From NCBI GenBank assembly GCA_963969595.1, contig OZ018408.1, positions 6,259,823-6,323,822 on the forward strand: a stretch of 64,000 nt of DNA. The letters are read 5' to 3'. The notes under the pieces are model-generated. The model was not told where the DNA came from and searched no databases. It was given only the letters and a program-made list of their open reading frames with translations. This DNA comes from Neckera pumila (Eukaryota > Streptophyta > Bryopsida > Hypnales > Neckeraceae). The stretch's first letter is position 1. Every line of letters starts with the position of its first letter. A program made the position numbers and the translations under genes. Below are positions 3,556 to 50,291 of this stretch, piece by piece.

Positions 3556-3781
3556 TTAACACCTAGAGGTCTAAGGCCATTTTTAATCAAAAACTAATAA
3601 AAAACTATTCAAAATTGACACTTCTATTGCAAAGAGCAAAAATATTTGAATTTTTTGCATATATAATTATAATGTCTTGCATAAGATTAGTATAAAAATA
3701 TGTGACAAAAATTTCATAAACTTAGGCCTCTGTCACGGATACTCTAGGATCTTCTAAGCTTCTCCATGGTCTTCTAGTACC

Positions 3782-3804
3782 TTCTAGAAACTTCCAGAAG
3801 CTTC
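3782..3804. promoter_or_regulatory. Perfect five-subunit heat-shock element in the 5' LTR
   Basis: The pentamers alternate without error: TTC (3782), GAA (3787), TTC (3792), GAA (3797), TTC (3802), each spaced by two bases. This is the canonical nTTCnnGAAn binding array of heat-shock factors. The same 23 bases recur in the 3' LTR at 7892-7914, so the site predates the later repeat expansion. The sequence match is certain; heat response is an inference. Confidence 0.75.
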
Positions 3805-3840
3805 TATAGTCTTCTAAGAGTCTTCTATAGTCTTCTAAGA

Positions 3841-4560
3841 GTCTTTTAGAAGCTTCCATAGTGTTCCAGAAGCTTCCATAGTGTTCCAGAAGCTTCCATA
3901 GTGTTCCAGAAGCTTCCATAGTGTTCCAGAAGCTTCCATAGTGTTCCAGAAGCTTCCATAGTGTTCCAGAAGCTTCCATAGTGTTCCAGAAGCTTCCATA
4001 GTGTTCCAGAAGCTTCCATAGTGTTCCAGAAGCTTCCATAGTGTTCCAGAAGCTTCCATAGTGTTCCAGAAGCTTCCATAGTGTTCCAGAAGCTTCCATA
4101 GTGTTCCAGAAGCTTCCATAGTGTTCCAGAAGCTTCCATAGTGTTCCAGAAGCTTCCATAGTGTTCCAGAAGCTTCCATAGTGTTCCAGAAGCTTCCATA
4201 GTGTTCCAGAAGCTTCCATAGTGTTCCAGAAGCTTCCATAATATTCCGGAAGCTTCCATAATATTCCGGAGCTTCCATAATATTCCGGAAGCTTCCATAA
4301 TATTCCGGAAGCTTCCATAATATTCCGGAAGCTTCCATAATATTCCGGAAGCTTCCATAATATTCCGGAAGCTTCCATAATATTCCGGAAGCTTCCATAG
4401 TATTTCGGAAGCTTTCATAGTATTCCGGAAGCTTTCATAGTATTCCGGAAGCTTTCATAGTATTCCGGAAGCTTTCATAGTATTCCGGAAGCTTTTATAG
4501 TATTCCGGAAGCTTTCATAGTATTCCAGAAGCTTCTGTAGTATTCCAAGAGCTTCCATAA
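3841..4560. repeat. 20-bp tandem array (about 36 units), each unit an HSE trimer
   Basis: Unit GTGTTCCAGAAGCTTCCATA. Nineteen identical units run from 3861 to 4240. They are followed by about eight units of the form ATATTCCGGAAGCTTCCATA (one is 19 bp), then about six with GCTTTC in place of GCTTCC, then degenerate ones. Each main unit contains TTCnnGAAnnTTC in perfect phase, and because the unit is 20 bp (four 5-bp subunits) the phase carries on from unit to unit. The 3' LTR has only about four degenerate units here. Long frames through the array on the minus strand (GTLWKLLEHYGSFWNTMEAS repeats) are artefacts of the period. Confidence 0.95.
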
Positions 4561-4669
4561 TGTTCCAGGAGCTTCCATAATCTTCTAGAAGATGATATAT
4601 TGCATTGAAAGTTTTCAATAGAGTTCTAAAAGCCTCCATAGAGTTCCAGAAGAACCTCTTAGGTAGTAG

Positions 4670-4842: not shown

Positions 4843-5211
4843 GCTTTCAAAACTTTGCTTGCAAAGTTTTTTCTAAATTTTCTTGCTTTAGCAAACGGAC
4901 AAGTTTTAGTTTTGTTTAAGGCCTATTCTAATTCTTGTTTTTTGATACAACCAAGCAGAAAACTAATACCGGAACTTGATTTTTTCTTGATAGAGTGTGG
5001 ATTACCCCTCTTCTTGAAAACTCTGAAGTGTTTAGGGGTTGTAGATTATCCTCCTCTAAACTAGTATTATTTTTGCTCAACAAAGTTTTTTCTCGATTGT
5101 GAGCGGTTTACCGTCCTTCTTGAAAACAACCTTGACATTTAGAGATTGTGGATTACCCATCTCTAAATTGGTTTGTCAAATTAGCTAGTCATCTTTGCCG
5201 AGTGAACTAAG

Positions 5212-6210
5212 ATGTCAGGAACTACAAACACAAATACCGCGGAGACTCAGTTAGACCTTATATTGAAAACCATTGAATCTTTATCTATGAGAACAAATAT
5301 TTTAGAGGATTTTGTGGCAAAAGTTGATATTAATCAACGAGCAACGGAGCCACCAGCTACCTCAACACCAAGAGCAATGATGCCTACTCAAGGCTTCGAT
5401 CCAATTCTATTAGCTGCAAAAGAACCAAGAATCAGTCTTCCCGAAAAATTCGATGGTTTTCGCTCTAAATTTCGAGGGTTTGTAAATCAAGTACAGTTGA
5501 TTATTGCCCTCCAACCTCAACGATATCCTACGGACAAATCACGAGTCAGCTTGGTTGGAACTTTGCTTACTGGACAAGCCTTGTCTTGGTTTGCACCACT
5601 ATTTGAAGCAAGGTCTCCTATTCTGAGTAACTTCGAAACGTTTCTAGCAATATTTGCCGAAGCATTTGGAGAACATGATAAAAATCGCTGGGCAAAAACC
5701 AAGATTCGTACTTTGCGACAAGGATCACGCTCGGCTTCACTATATGCATCCGAATTTCGGCAGTTGGCTTGTGACATCAACTGGGGCGAAGAAATACTCA
5801 TAAGCCAATTCCAATGGGGCATACGCGACGATGTGAAGGATCTATTATTATTGTTTTCTGATCCTCAAACAGTGAACGAAACAATAAGTCAAGCTGTGAA
5901 GTGCGACAATCAATTATTCCAACGGCGTCAAGATCGACGTTCTTGGACTACATCAACTTTACAAACATTTCCTTTGGTCAAGGCAACACATGTCACAAAT
6001 ATATCTTTTCAAGGACCAGAAGATATGCAGATTGATGCAGTAAAATTTGGGTCTCTTACTAAATAAGAAAAGAAACGACGACTTGATGAAGGCTTATGCC
6101 TATATTGTAGAGACTCTGGCCACAAGGCAATCAACTGCCCTAAGAAGCATAAAACAAGGACTTTATTACGGATTTACCTCCATCAGCATTTTTTGATTCC
6201 ATTTACGTGA
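5212..6210 (+). pseudogene. Chromovirus gag with premature stop before the zinc knuckle
   Basis: The ATG at 5212 opens 284 codons to TAA at 6064. The capsid-like region (residues about 60-235) has the sushi/PEG10-type signature: LPEKFDGFRSKFRGFV, LLTGQALSWFAP, FGEHDKNRWAKTKIRTLRQG, YASEFRQLA. Reading on in the same frame past the TAA gives EKKRRLDEGLCLYC and then CLYCRDSGHKAINC (6097-6138), an intact CCHC knuckle. The TAA is therefore an internal nonsense change and not the natural end. The frame then reaches TGA at 6208, just past the deletion junction. A nonfunctional copy of the structural protein. Confidence 0.85.
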
Positions 6211-7840: not shown

Positions 7841-8259
7841 TGTCACGGACACTCTAGGACCTTCTAAGTTTTTCCATGGTCTTTTAGTACCTTCTAGAAA
7901 CTTCCAGAAGCTTCTATAGTCTTCTAAGAGTCTTCTAAAAGTTTCCATAGTGTTCCAGAAGCTTTCATAGTGTTTTGGAAGCTTTTATAATGTTCCAGGA
8001 GCTTCTATAGTATTTTAGAAGATGATATATTACATTGGAAGTTTTCAATAGAGTTCTAAAAGCCTCCATAGAGTTCCAGAAGAACCTCTTAGGTAGTAGT
8101 ATATAAGGAGTCGAGATTGAGATAGTCCTCAGTCTCGACAACACATCTCTTAAGTATTATTCTTAATATTCAAGTTTCAGCCTTGTACTCTTCTTGACTT
8201 TAATAGCAATCTTGTTTCTAGAAACTTATCTTATCTTGTTCTCCTTGCCGTCCGTAACA
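7841..8259 (+). repeat. Chromovirus 3' LTR (419 bp)
   Basis: It begins TGTCACGGACACTCTAGGA and ends GCCGTCCGTAACA, followed by TSD GCCTC (8260-8264). It carries the five-subunit heat-shock element (7892-7914), about four degenerate 20-bp units (7915-8020), the TATA box (8100-8107) and the inferred transcript start (8131). It lacks the large array of the 5' LTR, so it probably shows the ancestral LTR length. Confidence 0.92.
7892..8131 (+). promoter_or_regulatory. Promoter region of the 3' LTR with HSE and TATA
   Basis: A perfect TTC/GAA pentamer array (7892-7914) stands 186 bp upstream of TATATAAGG (8100). Degenerate TTC..GAA..TTT units lie between. This promoter would fire outward into the right flank if active, but only non-coding TTAA-element sequence follows. 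Confidence 0.55.
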
Positions 8260-9001
8260 GCCTCATTGATTGCAAGATAATTACACTTAAAATGAAAAAT
8301 AAATAAAAATTGGACCTTACGAAAGTTGGATACAAGACTTTGAATCTCTTCAACTTTTAATATTGCATTATAATTTTAGAGGTTAAAAATCTTTATAGTG
8401 GAGAATTGAGTTCAAAATCTAAAATTTTTTTATTAAAAAAGACTTGATTTATTGTGCTTCAAAAAATTGTTCAACAGAAATAGATATGCAATAGGAAAAA
8501 AAATCCTTAATTGCTCTAAGATGAAATTGAAACATACTAATTCCAATAGTGAAATTATTATTAATAGCAAGTGAATTGTACCTTGTAGAATTTTAAATTT
8601 TGAAAAATTGTAAAAATTCAATTCAAAATTGAATTTCAATATTTACAGAAAAGACTATAATTGCCTCGAAACCAAAAAACTCCATAATTTTGCATCACTA
8701 ATTTAGATAGAATGAATCAAACCTTTTCATATAGGAAAAAAGTATAATCTATAAAAAAAAAATTAAAAATTTTATTCCATTTTTTGAGGATGTTATACCT
8801 ATCTATCAAAACAATTTTGGGGCTTATGCTACCATAACTCTTGCTCTTATGCATCAATTCAGACAGAAGTTATATTCCCATAAATTGAATGTATATTTCT
8901 ATCTTCTGAAATATTTCAAAAAATAATATTAAATTGTCTTATTGTCAATCTAAAAGGCAACCCAATATAGGGGTTAACATTGGACTTATTTTAGGGGTTA
9001 A

Positions 9002-11305: not shown

Positions 11306-11310
11306 AGACC
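11306..11310. other. Target-site duplication AGACC (left)
   Basis: AGACC at 11306-11310 and again at 25280-25284, immediately outside TGTAGAT and ATCTACA, the inverted LTR termini. Confidence 0.95.
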
Positions 11311-12910
11311 TGTAGATAGGTGTTTCTTCTATTTTTCTTATTTTTTTAGTATGTGTTTTTGACGTTTTTGACTGGCTGTATGTGTATTTGTGTGCCAATT
11401 TGGAAGTTTTGTCTTGTGAATAGCCAAATTGGAGTCCTTTTCCAGTGAAGATTGATTAATTGAGTGGGTCCTAGTTGGTTTAATAATGGCCAGTTGGTTG
11501 CGGTTTTTGTCCAAGTTGGTATGATTGAGTTCAAGGGGGTCTTATTCCGAATTGGTTTTGCCAGTGAGTTGTGGATGAATGTGGATGCCGAGTTGGATGT
11601 TTTGTTTTTGTTCCTATTTGGTTGTGTGTGGCGGTTCCGAGTTGGGGTCTGAGCTGTTAGGTTGGTTATCTCCGAGTTGGTAACTGCCAGTTTTGGAATT
11701 CCTATTTGGTTGTCGATTTTGTGGTCATTTCTACCCACTGTCGAGAGCGAGTCCAGTGTGTGTCCCAGCCAAATTGTGCTGTGTAATTTTTGTGTTTCTA
11801 GTTCTTTTGTGTGTGATTTTGTCTCTGTGAGTTCAAGTTGTTGTGTGTGTGTGGTTTATGTGTTTGTGTGTGTCTGAGTCCGAGTCGGATATGTTTGGTG
11901 ATAGCGGTGTAATGTGAATGAGTGCTAATTGGAAATTTGTCGTGTAAGGATTGGACATGGAGATCTTTGTTTGAATGCAGGAAGTTGAAGAGATAATCCA
12001 ATTTGTGGAAGTTGAGTTTATTGGAGTGGTGATTTCAAGTCAGTGAAGAAAGATTCCTATTTGGTGGAAGTGAGCACCAGTGCGAGTGGATGTTGAAGCA
12101 ATTGGAAGTTAAATTGAAGCTTAAGTTAGTGGTGTGAGGTGATTATGAAGTTAAGTCCAAATTGGAGATCAGAAGAGAGGACTTAGAATTAGAGCTTACA
12201 ATAGTGTTTAGAGCGCTGAGAATTTTATTAAGCTGTGGAGCTTTTATGTTGTATCAACGGTGATTTGTCACCAAGTTGGTTAAATACAAATTGGAAATAT
12301 TATGTCAAAATGTGGTGCTGTGATGGATGTGTTACGTGAGAAGTGATTGATTGTGTTTTTATTGATTCCAGTTGGTGAAGTTCCAATTTGGTTGAATCAG
12401 AGTGGGTGCTGTGAAAGTAAAGTCGAAATCCAAATTGGAGATGTGAAGCTTAAACATTGTCTGTCTGGCTTTCCGATTTGGTTATGCATTGTCATGTGTC
12501 ATGTGTTTGAATGAAGCCTTTTAACGAGGAGGAGTGACTGAGAATCCAAGTTGGCGATGGAAAATTCTATTTGAAAAGCGAATAGTTCCAACTTGGAATA
12601 AGAAATGTCAATTTTGCAATAAATTGAAATTATACAAAAATGAAGTGTGACATGACAAGGGAGTAAGCAAAATTAGTAGGTGGAGTTTAAAATCCAAATC
12701 GGAGGTCTGAGGAGCCAGGCGCAGTGAGCAGCTGGAAGAGCCGAGTTGGAAGAAGGACAGCCCGATTAGGTGGTGGTCCCTGTGCCAGTGCGGAACCGAG
12801 TTGGTGGAAAGAACATGAAGACCGACTTGGCATTTGGGAGATTGGCTTAACCTCTTTGGGTGTTAAAAAAATTAATTAAAAATTAAAATATTAAAATTAA
12901 AATTGAAAGG

Positions 12911-12953
<43 letters not shown>

Positions 12954-13119
12954 TAAATTATGGATAGTTGGGTCGATTTTCTTTCTTGCTTGGTGTTTGT
13001 AGTGTCCTGTTAGGCTACTAATTGACTAATTAGAAACGAACCTATTAGACAGACCTCCCTGGATCGAACATAAACTATAAGTTGGGTAAATTCCAAGTTG
13101 GGTTCCAACGCAATCTACA
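11311..13119 (+). repeat. 5' LTR of the Athila/Tat-like element
   Basis: 1,809 bp, TGTAGATAGG to CGCAATCTACA. It contains roughly 30 close matches to the CCNANTTGG motif and a TA tract at 12914-12952. Several short frames (for example 11346-11738 minus) recur in both LTRs but look non-coding. I could not place a convincing TATA box. Confidence 0.95.
12914..12952. repeat. TA dinucleotide tract in the 5' LTR
   Basis: About 20 TA units. The matching tract in the 3' LTR (about 25064-25113) is 10 bp longer, which accounts for most of the LTR length difference. Confidence 0.9.
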
Positions 13120-13122
13120 TTT

Positions 13123-13140
13123 TGGCGCCGCTGCCGGGGA
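13123..13140 (+). other. Primer-binding site (tRNA-Asp type)
   Basis: TGGCGCCGCTGCCGGGGA starts three bases after the LTR. It differs by one base from TGGCGCCGTTGCCGGGGA, the tRNA-Asp complementary site common in Athila elements. Confidence 0.85.
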
Positions 13141-13211
13141 GGCGAAATAATAGGTATTATTTTTTCTTTTTCTTCCTCTTTTCTCAGACTTTATAGGTAT
13201 GATGCTCGGTA

Positions 13212-16200
13212 ATGAGCAATATCTCTTTAAAATCTGAGGCTAGTAAAAAAGCTAGAGCTGAAAGAGTGAGGAAAAGAGATGCGAAGAAAAATCGCGAATT
13301 GGTTTCTAAAACTGAGTCAGAACCAGCATCTCCAAGTTGGAGGAGCTCGTTCCAATTAGGACAATTCTTTGGACAAAATCCTGAGAGTAGTCATAATCAA
13401 GGACAGGATGACCGAGTAGAAGAAAATATCCAAAGTAGGATAGAGAATATAAAAAACAATAAAAATATTAAAGAAGGTTTTGAGAAGCACCATTTGTTGT
13501 GTGAACCAATTTGTGTATCAAATCTTCCATCACCAAAGGATTCACCAAGAGAATCTGGTGACGAGGGTCAGCCCAAATTGGAAGAGGTCGGGGAAAGTAA
13601 TTTAGTATTACCTGACCCACTATTAACTGATTCCCCATTAGGATCTTTTAAAGGAAGATCTAGTCCAGTAGTGGGGGAAGAAGAGAATTCAAGTAGGCGT
13701 AAAGATCCAACTTGGAAGTCGGAAAGGAGAAAAATTCAAATCCCTTTAGCTTTTCAACAGGAGTTCGATTTGGAAACAGTAAGACGGAATTTAGAGGAAA
13801 CACTTTTCTCCGATTTGGGAAGAAATAACCAAGTTGAAGAAAGAAGGGTAGTAATGGCAGCCCCAGTGGCTGAAATCCCAGTAGTAATGAGGCAAGGTGA
13901 TGAGGCTGATAGGCCCTATGCACTTATGCCATTTCCGGTTTTTAATGGCCGAATGGGAGATGACCCAGATAGTCATGTGCATCAGTTTTTGACTTGTTGT
14001 AATGCCAACAATGCAAGAACTGAGGCACATTTTTTAAGTATTTTCCCTGGTACATTATGTAATCAAGCTAACAATTGGTTTCAAAGACAACCAATAGGGC
14101 ATTTTACTACGTGGACAGGGTTGAAAGACGAATTTTTAACTCATTTTCGTCCCGCTGCATATCAAGAAAAATTATTTGAGAAATTGGCCGAGTTGCATAT
14201 GGTAAGTGGGGAACGCATAGACAGTTATTATGGTAGATTAGAAGAAATTATGCTTCGATTACCAAATCATGATTATCCTGATGCGCATTTTATGCGTCAA
14301 TTCATAAATGGGTTGTACCCACCTAAACTAAAGGCTTTTGTCAAGGAAGTTAGTCCTGCTAATTTACCAACAGCCTTCCAAAGAGCTAAGTTGTGGGAAG
14401 AAGTACATTTAGGTGAGACATATATAAGTCCTACTATAGTACAACCTAGTTATTTGGACCAAATAGGAGTGCAAAGAGAAGATTTACCAAGTGCTACTAT
14501 ACCTATCTATAGGCAACCGGATTATGTTAATGTTATTCCAATGACCCAGACTCAAGTATCTTCTATTAGGGAACCAAATAATAGGAACCCAATAGGAAAT
14601 GTTCCTCATCAAATTCAACCAATTGTAAAGGAACCCAATTCGGCTGTAGAAGCTCAATTAATGGAATTAACTAAACAATTGGGAAATTTGCAAGTAAACA
14701 TGGCAAAAACAACTGAGAAAAAGGGTCAACCAAATGATGACCGTGCACACATTTGGTGCACAAATTGTAGAGGACATGGGCATATGGCACCTGATTGTCC
14801 TTCCCCACAAAATCAACCTTTAAAGTGTAGATTTTGTGGTGGGAAGCATGACACACTTGCATGTAGGAATTTACAAGCTAGTTTAATAACTCATGCAAAT
14901 AATTTAAATAAAAGTGCTCAAGTATACCAAGTGGATTCTAATTCAAATAATGGTCCAATGAATAATCAAAATTGGGGAGATAATCAAAATTGGAATAATA
15001 ATTATAACCGGACAAGAAGAAGGAATTTTAATTCTAATCCAAATTGTAATTCACCTAACTCAAATTTTACTCCAAATAATTTTAATAATGGAGGATATAA
15101 TAATAATCCCAATAGGTTTAATCCTCAAATACCAATTGGGAATAACCAGGGTTGGTCACAATTACCCTATAGTAATGTCAGTCAAAGACCTCCTACTTAT
15201 GGAGGCAACATTCCAAATTGGGGTGGTAACCAAGTAGGAGGAAATAGGAACATTATTTGTTACCGTTGTAATCAACCCGGTCATATAGCTACTAATTGTA
15301 CTAATGCAAGAGCTAGTGAGCAATATGCTCCCCTATGTGGGAATTGCAAGCAATCCGGTCATACGGCCGAGGAATGCAATGGCCTACGTAGGAATGATTC
15401 ACAACAAGGTTATAATACCAATAGAAGGGATAATAGTCCAAAAATAGTCCAATTGGATGAAAATGAAAATCCTCCAAATAATAAAGATCGTGCTTCTTTT
15501 TTAGTTCAAGTCGATACTAATGATAATTCAGTTCCTAATAGGAAAGAGAAAAGAGTTCAAAAAGTCTCTACTAGGAACCAAATTGTAAAAGAAAATCCTC
15601 AGGGTAATTTAGAAATTTTAAAAGAAAAAGAAATTACGCGTAAAGAAGCACAGCAATTGTTAAATCAACGCAACCAATTGGGTTTAAATTTTATGTTGGG
15701 AGGACAGTCTAATAATTTGTTAAGGAGTCCTATTGGAAAAGAAGAACAATCAAATAGGGCCGAGAATAATTTAAGTACTATCATTAAGAAGCCTAATGGG
15801 AAGTCTGTGCAGTTTGGTGCAGTCACATCAATGACTGTACCAAAGCAGACTAATATACCAAATGGGATCATAGTACCAGGAATTAATTCCCTGCCCGATT
15901 CGGTTGAGAAATCAAATACTAATGATGAGGAGCCATTAGTTATACCACCTATTTGGTTGGAGCCTGAAGGCTTGGTTGACCAGGCTGAGTCCGATTTGGA
16001 AGTTGATCCCGAAATTCATTCGGATACCAAGTTGGGCGAGTCAGGTCTGCCTAATAGGAAAGCCCGAATTGGGAAGTTAAAATCACCCATTAAGAGGAGA
16101 GGTTTAAATAACCAAATAGGAATTATTGATGAGACTAATCCTTATAATGTTATTGACAATTTGGGTACTGTCAAGGCTGACATTTCTATTCGGCAGTTGT

Positions 16201-16349
16201 TAGGAATTTTCCCTTCCTGTCGGGCAGCTCTTAAAGCCAAATTGGTTAGGAAACAAGTTAGACAAGTTCATGAAGTAGCATTAAGTCCCGATCCGGGAGC
16301 TCCTGTAATTAATGTTGAGATTGAAGGCCTAATTGTATCCGGTGTTTAA
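13212..16349 (+). CDS. ORF1: Gag with four CCHC knuckles, running into protease
   Basis: 1,045 residues from ATG 13212, 92 bases after the LTR. Residues 1-230 are charged and poorly ordered. The capsid-type gag domain spans about 230-395 (FPVFNGRMGDDPDSHVHQF, NNWFQRQPIGHFTTW, LTHFRPAAYQEKLFEKL, RQFINGLYPPKLKAF). CCHC zinc knuckles lie at about 515 (CTNCRGHGHMAPDC), 540 (CRFCGGKHDTLAC), 683 (CYRCNQPGHIATNC) and 709 (CGNCKQSGHTAEEC), with an Asn-rich linker (about 575-680) between the second and third. The C-terminus is a protease N-terminal segment (APVINVEIEGLIVSG). The frame stops at TAA (16347-16349), one codon before the protease Asp-Gly-Gly. Gag packages the element RNA into particles. 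Four knuckles is more than the usual one or two. Confidence 0.88.
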   Translation: MSNISLKSEASKKARAERVRKRDAKKNRELVSKTESEPASPSWRSSFQLGQFFGQNPESSHNQGQDDRVEENIQSRIENIKNNKNIKEGFEKHHLLCEPICVSNLPSPKDSPRESGDEGQPKLEEVGESNLVLPDPLLTDSPLGSFKGRSSPVVGEEENSSRRKDPTWKSERRKIQIPLAFQQEFDLETVRRNLEETLFSDLGRNNQVEERRVVMAAPVAEIPVVMRQGDEADRPYALMPFPVFNGRMGDDPDSHVHQFLTCCNANNARTEAHFLSIFPGTLCNQANNWFQRQPIGHFTTWTGLKDEFLTHFRPAAYQEKLFEKLAELHMVSGERIDSYYGRLEEIMLRLPNHDYPDAHFMRQFINGLYPPKLKAFVKEVSPANLPTAFQRAKLWEEVHLGETYISPTIVQPSYLDQIGVQREDLPSATIPIYRQPDYVNVIPMTQTQVSSIREPNNRNPIGNVPHQIQPIVKEPNSAVEAQLMELTKQLGNLQVNMAKTTEKKGQPNDDRAHIWCTNCRGHGHMAPDCPSPQNQPLKCRFCGGKHDTLACRNLQASLITHANNLNKSAQVYQVDSNSNNGPMNNQNWGDNQNWNNNYNRTRRRNFNSNPNCNSPNSNFTPNNFNNGGYNNNPNRFNPQIPIGNNQGWSQLPYSNVSQRPPTYGGNIPNWGGNQVGGNRNIICYRCNQPGHIATNCTNARASEQYAPLCGNCKQSGHTAEECNGLRRNDSQQGYNTNRRDNSPKIVQLDENENPPNNKDRASFLVQVDTNDNSVPNRKEKRVQKVSTRNQIVKENPQGNLEILKEKEITRKEAQQLLNQRNQLGLNFMLGGQSNNLLRSPIGKEEQSNRAENNLSTIIKKPNGKSVQFGAVTSMTVPKQTNIPNGIIVPGINSLPDSVEKSNTNDEEPLVIPPIWLEPEGLVDQAESDLEVDPEIHSDTKLGESGLPNRKARIGKLKSPIKRRGLNNQIGIIDETNPYNVIDNLGTVKADISIRQLLGIFPSCRAALKAKLVRKQVRQVHEVALSPDPGAPVINVEIEGLIVSGV

Positions 16350-19340
16350 GTTGATGGTGGTTCCAGTGTGAACCTGATGAACCAGGATACAATGTTGGGA
16401 CTTCACCTAACAGGATTACAAGAGACCAAGTTGGTATTACGCATGGCTGACCAGAGTAGGGTCAAGCCATTAGGCATTTTACCCAAAGTTAAAACTAGAA
16501 TAGCCGGGTTAATATTTATGATAGATTATATTATATTTCAACCTAATACCCAAAATGCTTCCTATCCCATCCTATTAGGTAGGCCCTGGTTGTATCAAGC
16601 CAAGGCAAAGGACGATTGGGGGAAGGGACTTATGAAGATTGTCCAAGGTAATCATACAGTTAGTATTGCCATGTATGCTAATAAATATCTTGGTGAAACC
16701 CAATGGGAGTCCCCTGGCAATACTAGTGATTTTGGTTATGATTCCGAATTGGAGGATCTGCATACTAATAGAATAAATATAAAAAATAAGGAAAAAAATA
16801 TAAAAGATCAAGTAATAAAAAAATATAAAGAACTAGCTCCAGGGGAATATATGATCCCTTGTGAGGACGAAGATAATTCGGATAAGGCCATTTATGGTTG
16901 GTTAACCGATAAGGTAGTATATGGAATTAATTCCGATTGGGAAGTTGAAGAGAGTAGTGAAGAGTATTATTCAGATAAAATGGCTGATGTCCCTATTAGG
17001 TCATATGTGGCTAAGGATCAGTGTCAAAATGTGAATATTGGGTCTTTGATAGAAGAAAAAAATATTCAAATAAATAAGGATTTAAAACCTGAAGAATTAG
17101 CCAAGTGGGCTCGATTCTTTGAGACTCATATTACTACATTTGCTTGGTCTTATAAAGACTTGAGAGGGGTTTCACCTAAAATATGTGAACATCATATTGA
17201 TTTGGAGGATGGAGCTAAGCCAGTTAGGCAAAGGCCTCATCGTCTAAATCCTAAATATTCATTATTAGTAAAGGAAGAAATAGAAAAATTAATTAATATT
17301 GGTTTTATTTATCCTGCTCCAAATAGCGAGTGGGTAAGTCCTATAGTAATTGTGCTAAAGAAAGATGGACGTATTCGTATATGTCAAGATTTTAGGAAGT
17401 TAAATGCTGTTACTAAGAAGGATGGATTTCCATTACCCTTCACTGACAGTATTTTGGATACGGTGGCCGGCCATGAATGTTATTCATTCATGGACGGTTT
17501 CTCTGGATATAATCAAATCCAGATCGCTAGGGAAGATCAAGCTAAAACAGCTTTTGTAACCGATTTGGGTATATATGCGTCTAGAGTCATGTTATTTGGA
17601 CTTTGTAATGGGGCAGCCACGTTTCAACGTGTGGCTACTTTAGCCTTCCAAGACTATCTTCATAAATTCATGGAGATTTTCTTGGACGACTTTTGTGTGT
17701 TTGGTACCAAATTGGACCATGCTAATCATTTGGCATTGTGTTTCGAGAAATGTAAGGAGTTTGGCATTTCTTTAAACGCCTCAAAATGTCAATTTTTAGT
17801 ACCTTATGGCAAATTACTTGGTCATATTGTAAGTGGTGAGGGAATTAGAATGGATCCCGATAAAGTGGCTAAAATATCCAAATTGCCTATTCCCTCTACT
17901 ATTACTCAAGTACGTGGATTTCTTGGTCATGTTAGCTATTATCGTCGGTTCATTAAAAATTATGCCCAAATAGCCTTACCTCTGACCGGTCTTCTTAAAA
18001 AATTAGAAGTGGGCACTAATCCTGTGTGGACACCTGAGTGTGGTGAGGCATTTTTAATATTAAAACAAAAATTAATGACGGCTCCGGTATTGATTTCACC
18101 TAATTGGGAAAAATCTTTTCATGTATATGTGGACGCCAGTAATGTGGCAATGGGGTGTATCTTGAGTCAAAAAGATGAGTTTGACAAGGATCATCCCATA
18201 TATTATGCTAGCCGCCAATTTGTACCCGCTGAAAGAAATTATACTACTACCGAGCGGGAGGCCTTAGGTATGATTTATGCGGTACAAAAATTTCGTCATT
18301 ACCTACTTGGGTATAAGTTTACGTTTTATGTTGATCATGATGCGTTTAAGTATGTTATAAATAAGCCACAATTAAGTGGGCGTTTGGCTAGGTGGGTGTT
18401 ACTTTTACAAGAGTTTAATTTCGATATAGTGGTTCGCCCAGGTAAACAACACTCTAATGCAGATTTTCTTTCCCGGTTAGAGGATAAAGTAGATCCAAAT
18501 GGGTCACCGGTTGAGGATGATATTCCCGACGCTGCCCTATTTGAGGTAGATGTTATTTCTACCGAATATGCGGATATTTTAAGTTATTTAAGTACTAATT
18601 TGTTTCCTAGTAATTATAGTGCTAGGCAAAAGTCTGCCCTAATTAGGAAGGTTGCTCCTTATACATTGATAGACAAAACTTTGTATAAGGTAGGTCATGA
18701 TGGTGTGCTTAGGCGGTGCATTTATAGGAGTGAAGTTCATGATATCCTACAAAGTTGCCATTCGGATGCGTGCGGTGGCCACTTTGCAGGTATATCTACA
18801 GCACAAAAAGTTTTGCTTGCTGGCTATTGGTGGCTGTCCCTATTTCGGAATGCTCACGAATTTGCAAGGCGCTGTGATCCGTGTCAGAGGGTGGGTAAAC
18901 CCTCACCTTCCATGGCAATGCCGTTAATTCCTTTAATGGCCTTAGCCCCATTTGAAAAATGGGGAATTGATTTCGTAGGCCCCATTGCCCCAACTACAAA
19001 ACATGGCCGTAAACAATATATTTTAGTGGCGACTGATTACGCTACCAAATGGGCTGAGGCTATGGCCGCCCGTAATGACGATGCCAAAACGGTGGCACGT
19101 TTTTTATATGAAAATATACTTTCACGATTTGGGTGCCCTCGGGAATTAATTAGTGACCGGGGCACACATTTCTTAAATACTACTATTGAGGAATTAACTA
19201 CTAGGTTTTTAATTAAGCATAGGAAGACGGCCCCTTATCATCCTAGGGCTAACGGGCAAACTGAGAAAACAAATGGGATATTGTGTAAAATTTTGACTAA
19301 GACAATAAGTGGGGCTGCTACTAATTGGGATGAAAAATAA
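16350..19340 (+). CDS. ORF2: protease, reverse transcriptase, RNase H, integrase (first part)
   Basis: The frame is the same as ORF1, separated only by one TAA. The protease active site DGGSSVNLM starts at 16353, before the first ATG (16368), so ORF2 makes sense only as a continuation of ORF1. RT occupies about 17,220-17,800 (SEWVSPIVIVLKKDGRIRIC, MDGFSGYNQIQI, LCNGAATFQR, and FLDDF in place of YxDD near 17,680). RNase H is about 18,110-18,490 (VYVDASNVAMGC, TTEREAL, VDHDAFKY). The integrase HHCC finger is near 18,755-18,890 (GGHF..CDPCQR). The catalytic Asp, Asp, Glu are in GIDFVGP (18,966), ISDRGTHF (19,150) and QTEKTNGI (19,258). A second in-frame TAA ends it at 19338-19340. Catalytic residues look intact. 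Confidence 0.88.
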   Translation, partial: VDGGSSVNLMNQDTMLGLHLTGLQETKLVLRMADQSRVKPLGILPKVKTRIAGLIFMIDYIIFQPNTQNASYPILLGRPWLYQAKAKDDWGKGLMKIVQGNHTVSIAMYANKYLGETQWESPGNTSDFGYDSELEDLHTNRINIKNKEKNIKDQVIKKYKELAPGEYMIPCEDEDNSDKAIYGWLTDKVVYGINSDWEVEESSEEYYSDKMADVPIRSYVAKDQCQNVNIGSLIEEKNIQINKDLKPEELAKWARFFETHITTFAWSYKDLRGVSPKICEHHIDLEDGAKPVRQRPHRLNPKYSLLVKEEIEKLINIGFIYPAPNSEWVSPIVIVLKKDGRIRICQDFRKLNAVTKKDGFPLPFTDSILDTVAGHECYSFMDGFSGYNQIQIAREDQAKTAFVTDLGIYASRVMLFGLCNGAATFQRVATLAFQDYLHKFMEIFLDDFCVFGTKLDHANHLALCFEKCKEFGISLNASKCQFLVPYGKLLGHIVSGEGIRMDPDKVAKISKLPIPSTITQVRGFLGHVSYYRRFIKNYAQIALPLTGLLKKLEVGTNPVWTPECGEAFLILKQKLMTAPVLISPNWEKSFHVYVDASNVAMGCILSQKDEFDKDHPIYYASRQFVPAERNYTTTEREALGMIYAVQKFRHYLLGYKFTFYVDHDAFKYVINKPQLSGRLARWVLLLQEFNFDIVVRPGKQHSNADFLSRLEDKVDPNGSPVEDDIPDAALFEVDVISTEYADILSYLSTNLFPSNYSARQKSALIRKVAPYTLIDKTLYKVGHDGVLRRCIYRSEVHDILQSCHSDACGGHFAGISTAQKVLLAGYWWLSLFRNAHEFARRCDPCQRVGKPSPSMAMPLIPLMALAPFEKWGIDFVGPIAPTTKHGRKQYILVATDYATKWAEAMAARNDDAKTVARFLYENILSRFGCPRELISDRGTHFLNTTIEELTTRFLIKHRKTAPYHPRANGQTEKTNGILCKILTKTISGAATNWDEK

Positions 19341-19814
19341 TGGGGTGCCTTGTGGGCATACCGAACTGCCTACAAGGGTACAACGGGGTTTTCCCCATTC
19401 CAATTGGTATATGGCCAAGAGGCCATTCTTCCCATTGAATTTGAAATTCCTAGTCTTAGGATTGCTATAGAAAATAAATTGGGGGATGATGAGAGTTTAA
19501 GGGCACGACTCACAAATTTGGAAGCTTTAGATGAAAAGCGGTGTGAGGCCTATTTAAATACTTTAGCTACCCAAAATAGGCGTAAATCCTATTATGATTC
19601 TAAGTTGAGGCCTAAAGAATTTAAAGTTGGAAGTTTGGTTCTTTTATATGATAGCCGATTCTTTAAATTTCCGGGGAAATTAAAAATGCATTGGTTAGGC
19701 CCATATGAAGTGGTTGATGTTAATCCTAATGGGTCCTTGCAACTAAAAGATTTTAAAGGCAATTTGCTTCCAACTAGGATTAATGGTTATCGGCTGAAGC
19801 CATATGTTGTTTAA
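19341..19814 (+). CDS. Integrase C-terminal part after the second in-frame TAA
   Basis: It continues the same frame: WGALWAYRTAYKGTTGFSPF, QLVYGQEAILPIEFE, then the GPYEVVDVNPNGSLQLKDFK-type C-terminal fold, ending LKPYVV at 19811. In related elements the position of the TAA is usually Leu (DEKLPxALWAYRT), so TTA to TAA is a likely change. No chromodomain follows. Alone this fragment would not be translated unless by readthrough or reinitiation. Confidence 0.8.
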   Translation, partial: WGALWAYRTAYKGTTGFSPFQLVYGQEAILPIEFEIPSLRIAIENKLGDDESLRARLTNLEALDEKRCEAYLNTLATQNRRKSYYDSKLRPKEFKVGSLVLLYDSRFFKFPGKLKMHWLGPYEVVDVNPNGSLQLKDFKGNLLPTRINGYRLKPYVV

Positions 19815-20583
19815 ATGCCGAGGGCGGCATTAAATTTTATGGGGGGCCTATTTGTGTTTGAAAATAAAAAATAAAAAATAAAATATATAGAGAGAGAACA
19901 TAATAATATTAAAAAATAAATAAAAAATAAAAAATAAATAAAAATATGTTGAGAAATGCCAAGTCGGAGTACCAATTCGGAGGTGACATACCAAATTGGA
20001 GGAGGTGGCAGGGGCCACTCACTGAAAGACAGGTATCATTTCAAATAGGCATCATGTTAAGCCGCCAAGTTCCAAATCGGCGGGATTGTCATCATCAGAC
20101 CGAGTTGGTTTGTTACGAGGCGAAGAGGGAAACCAAATTGGAAGATGAAAGCAGTTTGTGTGTTGTGTAACCTTTGGCAATTTGGTGTGTGTGCACATAA
20201 TATTGAGAGAGTTGTCGTGTGCTTGAGCATTGGTGAGACCGAATTGGACGTCGTTTGAGTTGATTTTTGTTTTGAGGGAGTGAGGGTTGTTGTCTGAGTC
20301 CGAGTTGGAGTGATTCAGGCTGGTATTGGTGTTTGTTACGAGGGCTGAGAGGTTGAGAGTTTTGAGTTACAGATTTGGAGGCCAATTAGGGTTTTCTGTG
20401 CGACATTGAGTGTAGTGTTTCGAGGTGGGGCGTCGTTGTAGTTGTGATCCAAGTTGGGCGCACTGTGAGCAAAAATAACCAATTAGGGACGGAGAGAAGC
20501 AATTTTTCCGAGAGAAAGTGAGGTTTTCGTTCCAAATTGGGAGCATTCGCCGAGAGAACTTAAGGTTGTGGATTGCAGGTACA
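19815..20583 (+). other. Motif-rich spacer between pol and ORF3
   Basis: The first ~130 bp are an A-rich AAATAAAA run. From 19,946 the sequence is packed with CCNANTTGG matches (CCAAATTGG, CCGAGTTGG, CCGAATTGG and near forms). The end, GTGGATTGCAGGTACAATG, has an AG that could serve as a splice acceptor for an ORF3 subgenomic RNA; a donor was not located. Confidence 0.5.
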
Positions 20584-23424
20584 ATGACGGATTCCGCTGA
20601 CAAGGGGAAAAACCCAATGGAGTCAAAAACCGAATTGGTGGAGCCGGAGGTGCAAAAAGAAAAGAAACCAAGATTGGGGGATGACCAGCAGGCACCTATT
20701 GCCCTGTCCAATGTCGAGTTTGCTGTGGAGCAAGGTGGGGCAGTAGAGAAGGTGGATTGGAAAGAGGAGGAGCTGTTGAAGATTCGTGAAGCCGGGTTGT
20801 GGGATTATTTCCAACTGGTATCGACTTTGGAAGAGGGAGATCTCAATAAGTTGGAGGTTTTCACAATGTCGTATATAGTTCCGCAGCGACAGGGATTGTT
20901 TCGTGGTGAGCCGGTGGAATTGAACCCCAGTCGGATAGCGGAAGTGTTTCTATTATCTAAGTCGGGTTTGTCCGTGCGAGCTGTGGGGGAAGATGGTACC
21001 AATTCGGTGTTAGAATGCTTCATTGGAAACGTAACGGAGGAGCAGTCTTCTCAGGATGCGTGGGAGTTGCGGTTAATAGAACCAAGTTGGCATCCATGGA
21101 TTGAGTGGGTGAAGACCAATTTGTTATTGGAGCCGACAGAGGGAGCGGTTTCTAGAAGTAGCCTCCGAGTTGTAATGGCCGTGAGGAAAGGCGTGGAGAT
21201 TAATTGGGGGTTGTTTCTTTCAAGGAAGTTGCACGCAGCGGTGGTAAATTTCAAGAAGATGCCGAGTGAAGCTTTGAAGGGAGCTAAATTATTATCCTAT
21301 TTGGTAGAGGCGAGTTGTAAGAACCTGCCTGAGTCTCAAGCGGTTCCTAAACCAGAGGCAGGGCAGCCAAGTAGGGAGAGGCCTCCGCAGACGGTGGGGC
21401 AGTTTAAGTCCCAGTTGGAGCAGATGATGACCAATTTGGATCAGTTTGACCCTGCCAAGTTGGAGAGCGTTCAAAAGGAGAACGCTGCATTGTTGCAGGA
21501 GGTCTCAAAGCTGAAAGCCGAGTTGGCTGATTCTCAAGAAGAGCGGATCCAGTACGAGATCCAAGTCGCGAGTGAGCAGCAAGATCTGTTGGACCAAGTT
21601 GGGGAATTAAAGGAGAAAGTGAACCGGCTAGGGAGGAAGGTGGAGGTAGAGCAGAGTGCCAAATTGGAGTTGCAGGAGCGGATGCATTTTATAGAGCGCC
21701 AGTTAGAAAATTGGGAGGTGAAGGTGAAGCAAGCTCTGGCCAAGTCGGAATCTGAAGAGGAGGAGGAGCTTATTTCACTAAAGCAACCCGAATTGGTGGG
21801 ACTTGAGGCGGAGGAGCAGCGGGTACGAGAGTACTACAAGGATTTGCATGCATCGAGTAGCCATGCCCAAGAGAAGTCCACTCCAATTCGGAAACGCCAG
21901 CGAGTACTTCACGCGGAGGACTTGGCCGTGTTGAATTTGCGAATTCCGCCTACTTCCAATTTGGAATTCGCTTATGCATGGGAGCGGGAGGTGTTTTTTC
22001 TTCATACAGGGCTGCAGATGAACGAAGTCCTTCCGAAGGCAAAGTTTAAAACAATTTGGAGTAGGGCTATTCAGCTGAAGTGTGAAAATTTGGTGGCCGA
22101 GATCGTGGCACGAGGGGAGATGGTGCCAAAAGACAAATTGGCTGCGTTGGCGCTGGTGGGGGATTACGGGGCACGGAGCTTGCTCTTTTATTCCGAATTG
22201 GAGGCAGCATTGGCCCAGAGGCGGCGGATGGCGTATACCTATTCGGCGAAGAGAAGGGAGTGTGTGGGTTCCCAGTTGTTGGACGGGGTGGCCCAGGCTT
22301 TATCTGCCTCGGGGCTAGCTTTGCAGGTAATTGATGCCGAGTGGGTAAAGGCAATTACGAGTTTGGAAAAGGAGTTTCAAGCCCCAGATTGGCTGCATGA
22401 GATGATTACAAATGTCCAAGATCGGTGTATGGAGAGCAAGATGGTGGATGTGCATCCTGCCACTTATGTAGCCAAATTCGGGTCGGTGCGTGAGAGTTTA
22501 GCAGGTAAACTCCAAGTTGGAGGGTTGAGGAAGGTTCCTATTTGGAATACGGAGGCGGAGTTGAGTTACAGGCGGCCCCAAATTGGTGATGCCTGGATAG
22601 ACTTGCCCGGTTTGTCAAGTACTCTAATTACGTGGAAGTTACCTAAGTGTTCTTATTCGGAGTTGAAGGACCGATTCTCGGGCTGTTATGAAGTCCTATT
22701 TGACAAGCTTTCAGATGTTCCTTTTCCAAGTTGGAGTGCGGTGTTTTGGCTAGGGCGTGATCACAGTGAGGTGCACAGGGCCCCACTTGTGGCGTTGGAT
22801 AAGTTGGATCACATGGAGCGTGCTTCTCGAGTGGATCATCTTCCCAATTTGGTTGCTGCTGATCCGAGGTTTTGTCCTTGCCCACGTTGTTATTTCTGGA
22901 GGGCAGATGCCAAGTTGGATTCGCTTTGGTACAACTGGCCGGTGATTCAGGGCAAGTTTACTACCTACCAAGAGTGTGTGGATTCCTATTCGGAGTTTGC
23001 AGCCCAGCATAGATGCCACAAGGATCCCGTGTGCTTTAAGGCTAGTATCTTTGCGGCGATATTGGCGAGTTGGTGCAAGGAGTACCAATTTGTGGTTGAT
23101 TACCGAGTGGGGGCGCGTCTTAGTACCGACATGGAGATTTTTTCCAAGATTCATTACCATTCGGCGAAGCGGATGAGGTTATTAGAACTGATGTGTGTGA
23201 CTCAATTTTTACCAGGTGCTCATAATGTTATGATTTCAGATGCGTGTGTGGAGTTGGAGACTCGTCGAGGTCCGGTGTTTCAGTTTTATGATAATCAAGT
23301 GCTGATTTGGAAAGAGCGTGCTGCTTTGGCAAAGAGGTTGCGAGAGGCGGCAGGGAATCCTACGACTAGGCAATTGCTTCCTCTTAAGCGTGGGGTGGCT
23401 CGGACGTTCAAGTTGAGGAAATAA
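20584..23424 (+). CDS. ORF3: 946-residue accessory protein with coiled coil
   Basis: ATG 20584 (MTDSADKGKNPMESK) is preferred over an upstream GTG. Residues about 60-250 resemble the large post-pol ORFs of Athila/Tat elements, called putative plant transposon protein: WDYFQLVSTLEEGDLNKLEV, VPQRQGLFRGEPVELNPSRI, then WELRLIEPSWHPWIEWVKTN and LRVVMAVRKGVEINWGLFL. A long coiled coil covers about 290-395 (LQEVSKLKAELADSQEER, LLDQVGELKEKVNRLGRKVE) and ends in an acidic run. The C-terminal half contains a Cys cluster CPCPRC (about 762) and HRCHKDPVCF (about 815), which could bind a metal. No clear transmembrane segment or signal peptide is seen, so a viral-type envelope is unlikely. It ends 37 bp before the 3' LTR. 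Function unknown; DNA binding is a hypothesis. Confidence 0.75.
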   Translation: MTDSADKGKNPMESKTELVEPEVQKEKKPRLGDDQQAPIALSNVEFAVEQGGAVEKVDWKEEELLKIREAGLWDYFQLVSTLEEGDLNKLEVFTMSYIVPQRQGLFRGEPVELNPSRIAEVFLLSKSGLSVRAVGEDGTNSVLECFIGNVTEEQSSQDAWELRLIEPSWHPWIEWVKTNLLLEPTEGAVSRSSLRVVMAVRKGVEINWGLFLSRKLHAAVVNFKKMPSEALKGAKLLSYLVEASCKNLPESQAVPKPEAGQPSRERPPQTVGQFKSQLEQMMTNLDQFDPAKLESVQKENAALLQEVSKLKAELADSQEERIQYEIQVASEQQDLLDQVGELKEKVNRLGRKVEVEQSAKLELQERMHFIERQLENWEVKVKQALAKSESEEEEELISLKQPELVGLEAEEQRVREYYKDLHASSSHAQEKSTPIRKRQRVLHAEDLAVLNLRIPPTSNLEFAYAWEREVFFLHTGLQMNEVLPKAKFKTIWSRAIQLKCENLVAEIVARGEMVPKDKLAALALVGDYGARSLLFYSELEAALAQRRRMAYTYSAKRRECVGSQLLDGVAQALSASGLALQVIDAEWVKAITSLEKEFQAPDWLHEMITNVQDRCMESKMVDVHPATYVAKFGSVRESLAGKLQVGGLRKVPIWNTEAELSYRRPQIGDAWIDLPGLSSTLITWKLPKCSYSELKDRFSGCYEVLFDKLSDVPFPSWSAVFWLGRDHSEVHRAPLVALDKLDHMERASRVDHLPNLVAADPRFCPCPRCYFWRADAKLDSLWYNWPVIQGKFTTYQECVDSYSEFAAQHRCHKDPVCFKASIFAAILASWCKEYQFVVDYRVGARLSTDMEIFSKIHYHSAKRMRLLELMCVTQFLPGAHNVMISDACVELETRRGPVFQFYDNQVLIWKERAALAKRLREAAGNPTTRQLLPLKRGVARTFKLRK

Positions 23425-23447
23425 AGTTTGGCGGGGACGCAAACAAA

Positions 23448-23461
23448 TCGGTGTGGGGCTA
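23448..23461 (+). other. Candidate polypurine tract
   Basis: CGGTGTGGGGCTA directly precedes TGTAGAT of the 3' LTR. It is G-rich but interrupted by pyrimidines, so it is a weak tract; GGCGGGGAC at 23,431 is an alternative. Confidence 0.35.
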
Positions 23462-25061
23462 TGTAGATAGGTGTTTCCTCTATTTTTCTTATTTTTTTAG
23501 TATGTGTTTTTGACGTTTTTGACTGGCTGTATGTGTATTTGTGTGCCAATTTGGAAGTTTTGTCTTGTGAATAGCCAAATTGGAGTCCTTTTCCAGTGAA
23601 GATTGATTAATTGAGTGGGTCCTAGTTGGTTTAATAATGGCCAGTTGGTTGCGGTTTTTGTCCAAGTTGGTATGATTGAGTTCAAGGGGGTCTTATTCCG
23701 AATTGGTTTTGCCAGTGAGTTGTGGATGAATGTGGATGCCGAGTTGGATGTTTTGTTTTTGTTCCTATTTGGTTGTGTGTGGCGGTTCCGAGTTGGGGTC
23801 TGAGCTGTTAGGTTGGTTATCTCCGAGTTGGTAACTGCCAGTTTTGGAATTCCTATTTGGTTGTCGATTTTGTGGTCATTTCTACCCACTGTCGAGAGCG
23901 AGTCCAGTGTGTGTCCCAGCCAAATTGTGCTGTGTAATTTTTGTGTTTCTAGTTCTTTTGTGTGTGATTTTGTCTCTGTGAGTTCAAGTTGTTGTGTGTG
24001 TGTGGTTTATGTGTTTGTGTGTGTCTGAGTCCGAGTCGGATATGTTTGGTGATAGCGGTGTAATGTGAATGAGTGCTAATTGGAAATTTGTCGTGTAAGG
24101 ATTGGACATGGAGATCTTTGTTTGAATGCAGGAAGTTGAAGAGATAATCCAATTTGTGGAAGTTGAGTTTATTGGAGTGGTGATTTCAAGTCAGTGAAGA
24201 AAGATTCCTATTTGGTGGAAGTGAGCACCAGTGCGAGTGGATGTTGAAGCAATTGGAAGTTAAATTGAAGCTTAAGTTAGTGGTGTGAGGTGATTATGAA
24301 GTTAAGTCCAAATTGGAGATCAGAAGAGAGGACTTAGAATTAGAGCTTACAATAGTGTTTAGAGCGCTGAGAATTTTATTAAGCTGTGGAGCTTTTATGT
24401 TGTATCAACGGTGATTTGTCACCAAGTTGGTTAAATACAAATTGGAAATATTATGTCAAAATGTGGTGCTGTGATGGATGTGTTACGTGAGAAGTGATTG
24501 ATTGTGTTTTTATTGATTCCAGTTGGTGAAGTTCCAATTTGGTTGAATCAGAGTGGGTGCTGTGAAAGTAAAGTCGAAATCCAAATTGGAGATGTGAAGC
24601 TTAAACATTGTCTGTCTGGCTTTCCGATTTGGTTATGCATTGTCATGTGTCATGTGTTTGAATGAAGCCTTTTAACGAGGAGGAGTGACTGAGAATCCAA
24701 GTTGGCGATGGAAAATTCTATTTGAAAAGCGAATAGTTCCAACTTGGAATAAGAAATGTCAATTTTGCAATAAATTGAAATTATACAAAAATGAAGTGTG
24801 ACATGACAAGGGAGTAAGCAAAATTAGTAGGTGGAGTTTAAAATCCAAATCGGAGGTCTGAGGAGCCAGGCGCAGTGAGCAGCTGGAAGAGCCGAGTTGG
24901 AAGAAGGACAGCCCGATTAGGTGGTGGTCCCTGTGCCAGTGCGGAACCGAGTTGGTGGAAAGAACATGAAGACCGACTTGGCATTTGGGAGATTGGCTTA
25001 ACCTCTTTGGGTGTTAAAAAAATTAATTAAAAATTAAAATATTAAAATTAAAATTGAAAGG

Positions 25062-25114
<53 letters not shown>

Positions 25115-25279
25115 TAAATTATGGATAGTTGGGTCGATTTTCTTTCTTGCTTGGTGTTTGTAGTGTCCTGTTAGGCTACTAATTGACTAATTAGAAACGA
25201 ACCTATTAGACAGACCTCCCTGGATCGAACATAAACTATAAGTTGGGTAAATTCCAAGTTGGGTTCCAACGCATCTACA
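23462..25279 (+). repeat. 3' LTR of the Athila/Tat-like element
   Basis: 1,818 bp, TGTAGATAGG to CGCATCTACA, followed by the target duplication AGACC (25280-25284). Nearly identical to the 5' LTR. Confidence 0.95.
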
Positions 25280-25640
25280 AGACCCTTTTGTGTTGTTGTT
25301 TGTGGCCCGATTTGATTATTTGTTATTCCCAGCCAATTTTGGAGGCTAATTGTTTTTCCTTTCTGTATTGTGAACTTGTTGTGGGCTTTGTAGGAATCCA
25401 AGAGTAGTCCCATTTTGTGTTTGTAACAACGAAATGGGATTGATTACCCACATAGTCGATTTTATATATTGTTCCTACTGATGAGGCACGATTGCTGGTC
25501 ACCGTAGGTTTGAAGTTTAGGAGCCCATCATCCGGCCGAACCCTGACCCGTTTAGAATCAACACAGGATAGGCCAACGGGGAGGAGTTTGAAGATCAAAG
25601 TTTGAAGATTGAAGATCAGAAGACACGAAGGTTGTTTGAA

Positions 25641-50215: not shown

Positions 50216-50291
50216 GAATTTGTAAATCAACTTTTCTCAAATTGAAAAATTCTAAAAAATTGAGTTTAATCATATTAAATCATTTCATCTA

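Follow-up and report, generated by a model that had tools for sequence, protein, structure and literature searches.

Organization of the element

The DNA analyzed here, a stretch of 64,000 nucleotides from Neckera pumila (hereafter the window), contains a Ty3/gypsy-type long terminal repeat (LTR) retrotransposon that carries one short palindromic motif in its LTRs, its genes, and its pol–ORF3 spacer; the copies of this motif are, in our assessment, almost certainly selected protein-binding sites. The exact limits of the element are 11311–25279, as an earlier reading of the letters (the sequence-only reading) had placed them, and follow from the LTR ends and a target-site duplication, AGACC, at 11306–11310 and 25280–25284. 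The 5′ LTR (11311–13119, TGTAGAT…ATCTACA) and the 3′ LTR (23462–25279) were compared with each other; they are 1.8 kb long, lie on the forward strand like every other part of the element named in this section, and differ by one substitution (11327), a 10-bp AT-repeat indel, and a 1-bp indel, which indicates a young insertion.

Downstream of the 5′ LTR lies a primer-binding site recognized by its sequence (13123–13140, TGGCGCCGCTGCCGGGGA), which we take to resemble the 3′ end of plant tRNA-Asp. The first coding frame (13203–16346) comprises gag, with Retrotrans_gag and zinc knuckles found by Pfam, and the start of the protease frame, a label given from the sequence with no Pfam hit. The second (16350–19337), with stops at both ends, holds the remaining protease and, according to Pfam, reverse transcriptase (RT), RNase H, and the integrase core, and is followed by a C-terminal part of the integrase frame (19341–19811, 157 codons) that was assigned by frame continuity, again with no Pfam hit. 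In-frame stops at 16347–16349 and 19338–19340 break the gag-pol frame of this copy within protease and integrase; it may therefore depend on other copies and, judging from its reading frames, probably moved with their help. A 664-bp spacer (19815–20478) separates pol from a third open reading frame (ORF), ORF3 (20479–23421, 981 codons from stop to stop), which encodes the candidate binding protein.

Two LTRs with a target duplication, a gag gene, and the order RT–RNase H–integrase assign the element to Ty3/gypsy, and the sense frame between pol and the 3′ LTR qualifies as an extra ORF (eORF or ORF3). With regard to the OTA (Athila/Tat) lineage, of which Tat is marked by an extra RNase H domain, Pfam detected a single RNase H region, of the RT type, and gave no hit to a chromodomain. 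The named pol relatives among the 120 listed are plants (e.g. Riccia, Marchantia, Rosa, Malus), and the highest identities to the window pol in this set are 60–71%. Pol relatives were also sought in viral and genome contigs, where none was confirmed, and an Rfam scan and a tRNA scan were empty.

A palindromic motif saturates the element

The motif, which had been described as a 9-bp near-palindrome, is real and in fact fully symmetric: CCNANTNGG, of which CCNANTTGG is one face, has fixed bases at positions 1, 2, 4, 6, 8, and 9 and free bases at positions 3, 5, and 7, with A and G most frequent and C least frequent at position 3. The window contains 111 distinct CCNANTTGG/CCAANTNGG starts, 108 of them (both LTRs counted) at 11395–25254, so that the sites span 11395–25262 of the element; none starts before 11395, and three lie 3′ of the element (59623, 60201, and 60632). 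Both flanks are at chance (0 vs. 0.73 and 3 vs. 2.95 expected). The chance rate of about one per 8 kb given by the sequence-only reading is of the right order and, if anything, high for AT-rich DNA, and the saturation it reported for LTRs, spacer, ORF3, and also gag-pol was confirmed, with its ten sites starting within 11395–11709, and proved stronger than claimed. Counted as the full palindrome, 105 CCNANTNGG sites in the 12,151-bp unique element compare with 4 in 50,031 bp of flank. The 5′ LTR holds 25 of these palindromes, most densely at 11395–11701 and 12383–12822.

With one LTR copy counted, the LTR has 23 sites against 0.18 expected from dinucleotide composition (127-fold), and the pol–ORF3 spacer 10 against 0.09 (106-fold). 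Enrichment in coding DNA was tested against codon-preserving shuffles, 2000 per frame. For CCNANTTGG/CCAANTNGG, gag has 18 sites against a shuffled mean of 4.67 (maximum 12), pol (16350–19337) 9 against 2.14 (maximum 7), and ORF3 24 against 3.31 (maximum 9), a 3.9- to 7.3-fold excess that the shuffles, a check proposed with the earlier claim, fail to produce. For CC.A.T.GG the observed count was likewise never reached (ORF3 29 vs. 4.8, gag 26 vs. 5.83, pol 13 vs. 3.05). The 157-codon integrase end has 1 site against 0.33, and no CCNANTTGG/CCAANTNGG site occurs in the short 90-bp leader or in the 36 bp that follow ORF3. All three codon phases are occupied in ORF3 (6, 14, and 4 sites), and the sites named earlier as examples, at 20630, 21082, and 21594, exist. 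The density of CCNANTTGG/CCAANTNGG sites per kb falls from the spacer, the densest region of the element (15), through the LTR (13), ORF3 (8), and gag (6) to pol with the integrase end (2–3), a gradient that matches expectation if protein coding limits the sites.

Under the rule of CCNANTTGG, CCAA ranks first of 256 palindromic half-sites with a count of 85, followed by CCGA, CCTA, and CCCA, which overlap CCAA; the next has a count of 11. The spacing of the half-sites is nearly strict: once the 105 sites are masked, 10 sites are found at spacing 2, where the flanks predict about 1.9, and 1–5 at spacings of 0, 3, 4, and 5. Every one of the 24 500-bp bins of the element holds at least one site, the median gap is 73 bp, and no helical periodicity was found in the site spacing within the element. 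The inner free positions are independent of each other, with 40 complementary pairs against 39.7 expected, which argues against selection for strand pairing, in RNA or as a cruciform; their independence fits separate reading of the two half-sites.

These inner positions also bear on whether the motif acts in RNA, during packaging, dimerization, or translation. Sites do occur throughout the transcribed region, and the inner pair G–T, which can wobble in RNA, outnumbers A–C by 20 to 8. However, pairable inner positions show no clear excess even when wobble is included (62 vs. 58.0), T–T and A–A pairs are near equal (9 and 8), and a hairpin is impossible with a 1-nucleotide loop; we therefore hold a role in RNA to be very improbable. 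Still less weight, close to none, falls to the view that the motif has no function and follows from base composition, codon usage, or duplication in tandem. The composition of the LTR + strand is unusual (C 11%), which would favor such an origin, but it is refuted by the codon shuffles, by the site conservation described below, and by the surroundings of the sites: the 30-bp flanks match each other at best in 15.0 of 30 positions, compared with 15.1 of 30 at random positions, and hence the sites were not spread by duplication. An RNA motif, a tandem-repeat origin, and a codon or composition by-product were accordingly rejected on the shuffles, the flank likeness, and the independence of the free positions.

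Conservation of the sites in related copies

A 590-bp query from the start of the LTR gave 41 matches of 73–100% identity in the genome that contains the window (339.5 Mb in 18 contigs). Two of these are the window's own LTRs and two share one place, and the 38 other places were aligned. Across the 25 LTR sites and 38 copies, the conservation of the six fixed bases is 0.935, 0.932, 0.979, 0.981, 0.955, and 0.944, compared with 80.7, 79.8, and 88.7% at the free positions and 73–91% in the flanks. Among copies with less than 82% identity, of which there are 18, the site is intact in 303 of 406 observable cases; for like-spaced control sets the figure is 4911 of 18500. Copies that are 72–80% identical in their best aligned block have 8–27 sites each, or 9–15 per kb.

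Conservation in coding DNA was examined in three copies, L188 and L187 for ORF3 and L165 for pol. The most diverged ORF3 copy, L188 (78% identical), has 10 of 13 sites intact, against 3.3 expected from phase-matched controls, and its third-codon mismatches affect 1 of 26 fixed bases and 122 of 305 positions elsewhere (Fisher p 7.7e-5); in L187 the corresponding differences are 0 of 28 and 43 of 325. The motif copies are thus kept by selection acting on the DNA, as had been proposed from the use of all codon phases: sites are retained far above expectation in the LTR and in L188, and the fixed bases exceed the free positions. The second refuting outcome named with the earlier claim, relatives that lack the motif at these places, thus did not occur either. 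When pol relatives were scored for peptides compatible with the sites, 93 of the 120 proteins covered the region and the five of these with at least 64% identity scored 1.6–2.8 against a mean of 0.74, which is suggestive only because related proteins share residues.

Related elements carry different palindromes

A search of the same genome with the window ORF3 gave at least 49 matches, down to 24% identity. Ten distant ORF3-bearing places, given below by contig and position, were compared, two stretches being taken from each, and 192 palindromic patterns were scanned per element. The element at C4:5.95 Mb (CCNATNGG family) has CC.AT.GG as its best pattern (57 vs. 2.9). Those at C10:18.7, C10:15.1, C10:4.94, C2:34.2, and C9:2.94 Mb form a WCNATNGW family, in which the first two patterns are TC.AT.GA and AC.AT.GT (29 vs. 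3.8 and 20 vs. 2.7 in one example). At C3:43.4 and C3:21.99 Mb (ACNANTNGT family) the pattern is AC.A.T.GT (30 vs. 1.2 and 26 vs. 3.1), and C11:7.39 Mb (GCNTNANGC) shows a weaker GC.T.A.GC (12 vs. 1.2). We refer to these patterns as dialects. The four clear dialects, that of the window included, follow a common grammar (xC-N-A, 0 or 1 free base, T-N-Gx′), and the C11 palindrome has T and A where the others have A and T. The three copies on C10 share about 97% of their sequence and are not independent, and for C9, C2, C11, C3:21.99, and C3:43.4 no LTR pair was found, so the limits of these elements were set by eye from density profiles, with intervals chosen post hoc.

Each family shows its highest density for its own site; per kb, the window family carries 8.64 copies of its own palindrome and 0.33–0.82 of the sites belonging to the remaining three clear dialects. 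In pol stretches that are homologous and about 67% identical, CC.A.T.GG occurs 15 times in the window and not at all in three of the four WCNATNGW copies counted, and CTATAG 12–13 times in three WCNATNGW copies against 2 in the window; the fourth WCNATNGW copy, C9, has 5 CC.A.T.GG and 10 CTATAG. Outside the LTR pair, site density drops to background in C4 and the three C10 elements. Codon shuffles (2000 each) never reached the observed counts in the CCNATNGG ORF3 (21 vs. 3.2) or a WCNATNGW ORF3 frame (15 vs. 3.3). The WCNATNGW core, C[AT]AT[AT]G, is conserved at 115 of 158 sites compared with 157 of 418 controls at 77% identity, at 82 of 101 compared with 52 of 116 at 91% identity, and, in the ORF3 part at 68% identity, at 28 of 49 compared with 6 of 47. 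A genome-wide search for CTATAG clusters (118 vs. 102 per strand in the control) was uninformative.

The dialects bear on the idea that the sites are recognized by a transcription or chromatin factor of the host, each family having been captured by a different factor or paralogue. Palindromes of this size are typical for dimeric transcription factors, and among the matches listed in a genome pattern search for the window dialect (107 and 73 matches) there are further repeats with this dialect outside the LTR family. On the other hand, four clear dialects on one grammar point to a single family of proteins, site numbers in the window flanks do not exceed chance, and a promoter role would not require sites across gag, pol, and ORF3. 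Binding by host factors thus appears quite unlikely to us.

Several other places with dense sites were observed. Among the matches listed, a window-dialect cluster at C1:38068178 lies about 5 kb upstream of an ORF3 homologue of 47% identity (C1:38060476–38063328), which suggests that this relative still uses the window dialect. C1:8495566, C2:42556610, C3:22278592, and C3:25031379, also among the matches listed, belong to another repeat, with a TATA-like stretch between two window-dialect palindromes; it is absent from the LTR matches of the 590-bp search and is perhaps a further family or consists of dependants on the same code. In viral contigs the cluster pattern matched at least 120 loci, the largest by density alone being L037 (IMG/VR, 11 CCNANTTGG-type sites in 1026 bp) and L084 (12 in 8710 bp).

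The ORF3 protein

ORF3 consists of an N-terminal region, a long helical middle (approximately residues 325–460), which according to a poor model is probably a coiled coil, and a conserved C-terminal region rich in Cys, His, and Trp. Seven aligned ORF3 frames, several of them partial, are 23–32% identical to the window protein and share 26 invariant columns, mostly C-terminal. Pfam gave no family above the cut-off for the window ORF3 and none that is convincing for the seven relatives, and searches of 5.8 billion clustered proteins yielded no relative at E ≤ 0.001 among 7993 scored candidates or at 0.1 among 7994. Six profile matches to solved structures (best E 0.017) were taken as chance coiled-coil matches. 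The AlphaFold model of the C-terminal part is unusable (mean predicted local distance difference test score, pLDDT, 34.2).

Comparison with known systems

Repeated short binding sites within a mobile element are known from the subterminal TnpA motifs of Spm/En and the Su(Hw) sites of Drosophila gypsy; these are limited to element ends or to one leader region, and Su(Hw) is a host protein. VANDALs are Mutator-like element (MULE)-type DNA transposons. Two reports describe, for VANDAL21/VANC21 and VANDAL6/VANC6 of Arabidopsis, a short motif that is concentrated in the family and rare elsewhere, a motif density that seems important, and related families with different motifs and diverged element proteins (PMC5735166, PMC10398659). 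The window element likewise has a dense, family-restricted motif, with partial overlap between dialects, and relatives with different motifs. In contrast, it is a reverse-transcribing LTR element, hence not a member of the VANDALs, and its motif is palindromic and also present in gag, pol, and ORF3, with unrelated flanks around the sites. The VANC21 motif, YAGTATTAY, is in these accounts mainly noncoding, arranged in single-orientation arrays, and spread by tandem repeats (PMC5735166, PMC10398659); no such spread was found in the window element, where flank likeness is at random level. From the noncoding arrays that VANC21 binds, its effect extends to the entire element, and the authors call its role in coding regions enigmatic (PMC10398659). 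Unpublished work mentioned in a 2026 meeting report suggests that the structure of VANC coevolves with its target DNA (PMC12859917). The parallel to VANDAL/VANC drawn by the sequence-only reading therefore stands for homologous elements with different dialects and fails for the sites in coding DNA and for a tandem-duplication origin. Pfam scans of ORF3 and seven relatives turned up no sequence link to VANC, with which no direct comparison was made.

Athila-type Ty3/gypsy elements with an “env-like” eORF share the gag-pol order, a sense ORF3 downstream of pol, and a noncoding spacer, and differ in that no element-wide motif is mentioned in the accessible parts of the two reviews, where what such additional ORFs of plant LTR elements do is described as unclear or speculative (PMC7264820, PMC6317226). 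Retand, also a plant Ty3/gypsy element, encodes a protein with predicted DNA-binding capacity between pol and the 3′ LTR; unlike the window element it has antisense ORFs and short tandem repeats, and the portion of the report at hand mentions no family-specific dispersed palindrome (PMC11963269). In the literature covered, titles and the beginnings of abstracts with most subscription journals outside the scope, no LTR retrotransposon with an element-wide palindrome, or element protein reading one, was recognized.

Proposed mechanism

The sequence-only reading had likened the sites to a dispersed binding platform, and the results support this, the binding protein and its effect being inferred. 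The palindrome suggests binding by a dimer, to which a coiled-coil protein would be suited, and ORF3, homologues of which occur together with the dialects, is the predicted reader; we consider this assignment probable. A symmetric dimer would read the half-sites CCNA with one free base between the halves. Sites would have been placed across the element by point mutation and then held by selection, even at the cost of codon choice. ORF3 dimers could then coat the DNA of their own family and pass over other DNA, which they would ignore because only high local site density recruits the protein. As related families diverged in ORF3 and site alike, each would come to mark itself in its own dialect. 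We lean towards an account in which the DNA of the family is coated by a homodimer, most likely of the coiled-coil ORF3 that the element itself encodes, and in which site and protein change together. To the same degree we favor the broader proposal that this group's “env-like” ORF3 proteins form one rapidly diversifying family and bind DNA as dimers, each evolving with a private palindrome placed throughout its element, coding DNA included, as a self-label.

The likeliest benefit would be that the whole element, genes included, stays free of silent chromatin, as VANDAL elements do through VANC, with ORF3-bound palindromes spanning integrated copies from end to end and shielding them from silencing. 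With sites running through the genes, spreading of the effect would not be needed. Anti-silencing as the outcome of binding is a tentative proposal, for which the chances are slightly below even. The arrangement is nevertheless best read, by analogy, as a VANC-like logic in an LTR retrotransposon, with palindromic sites that lie inside genes and do not stem from tandem repetition.

Coverage of the whole element would equally suit the coating of linear complementary DNA (cDNA), and the protein on the sites might be Gag, integrase, or ORF3 present in the cytoplasm or particle, with cDNA compaction, nuclear delivery, or tethering of the DNA copy as the purpose rather than chromatin state. The dialect families with an aligned pol have their own diverged pol, which is consistent with this, but Gag zinc knuckles typically bind RNA. 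Once the protein is taken to be ORF3, anatomy cannot tell such a role from shielding of integrated copies; overall we judge it unlikely.

Several observations weigh against ORF3 as the reader of a private palindrome. Gag and pol are also family-specific, so that co-occurrence does not single out ORF3, in which neither Pfam nor a structure-profile search recognized a DNA-binding domain, and its AlphaFold model offers no usable structure (mean pLDDT 36.6, middle mostly helical, poor). Site conservation is unconvincing in the closer ORF3 copy L187 (91% identical; 10 of 14 sites vs. 8.3) and carries little information in the pol copy L165 (4 of 5 vs. 3.6). The dialects are not fully exclusive: CC.AT.GG occurs at 0.8–0.9 per kb in the window family and three tabulated WCNATNGW copies compared with 0.10 in flanks, and the CCNATNGG family retains CC.A.T.GG at 1.38 per kb compared with 0.08. 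In the ACNANTNGT family the sites lie mainly in ORF3 and the 3′ part, with 1 (C3:43.4) and 4 (C3:21.99) ACAANTTGT in the 10-kb upstream pieces, and enrichment in its two ORF3 frames is modest (observed counts reached by 8 and 4 of 2000 codon shuffles); in the C11 GCNTNANGC ORF3 it is weak (80 of 2000). Finally, no dialect emerged from the 192-pattern scan at C1:0.55 Mb (L185 and L186; best log10 P −2.3). This place has an ORF3 homologue of 24% identity and LTR-like direct repeats that are 99.7% identical, and is either a natural negative control or the carrier of a differently formed dialect.

If ORF3 does read the palindromes, the role of plant “env-like” extra ORFs becomes directly testable, and an ORF class of unknown role would gain a function. 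LTR retrotransposons would then possess a self-recognition code, comprising at least four dialects of a common grammar within one genome and written by a mobile element into its own genes, where selection on the sites competes with protein coding. The four clear dialects in one genome offer a natural experiment in the joint change of a DNA-binding protein and its sites, and the families could be a source of new sequence-specific dimeric DNA-binding proteins.

Surroundings of the element

An inverted repeat of 82% identity (25315–25535 and 34308–34526) has one arm directly past the 3′ end of the element. Upstream, at 3731–4591 and 7841–8260, a 20-bp tandem repeat, AGAAGCTTCCATAGTGTTCC, with about 37 copies at 3848–4591, and related repeats at a distance of a few kb lie on either side of another Ty3/gypsy gag ORF (5206–6066). 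Downstream, 42585–43067 is an exon of a TCP-1/cpn60 chaperonin gene (Pfam E 2e-20). A second inverted repeat (49284–50218 and 59023–59908, 77% identical, arms about 9 kb apart) contains the stray CCNANTTGG site 59623 in its second arm, and the sites at 60201 and 60632 are at most 0.8 kb from this arm.

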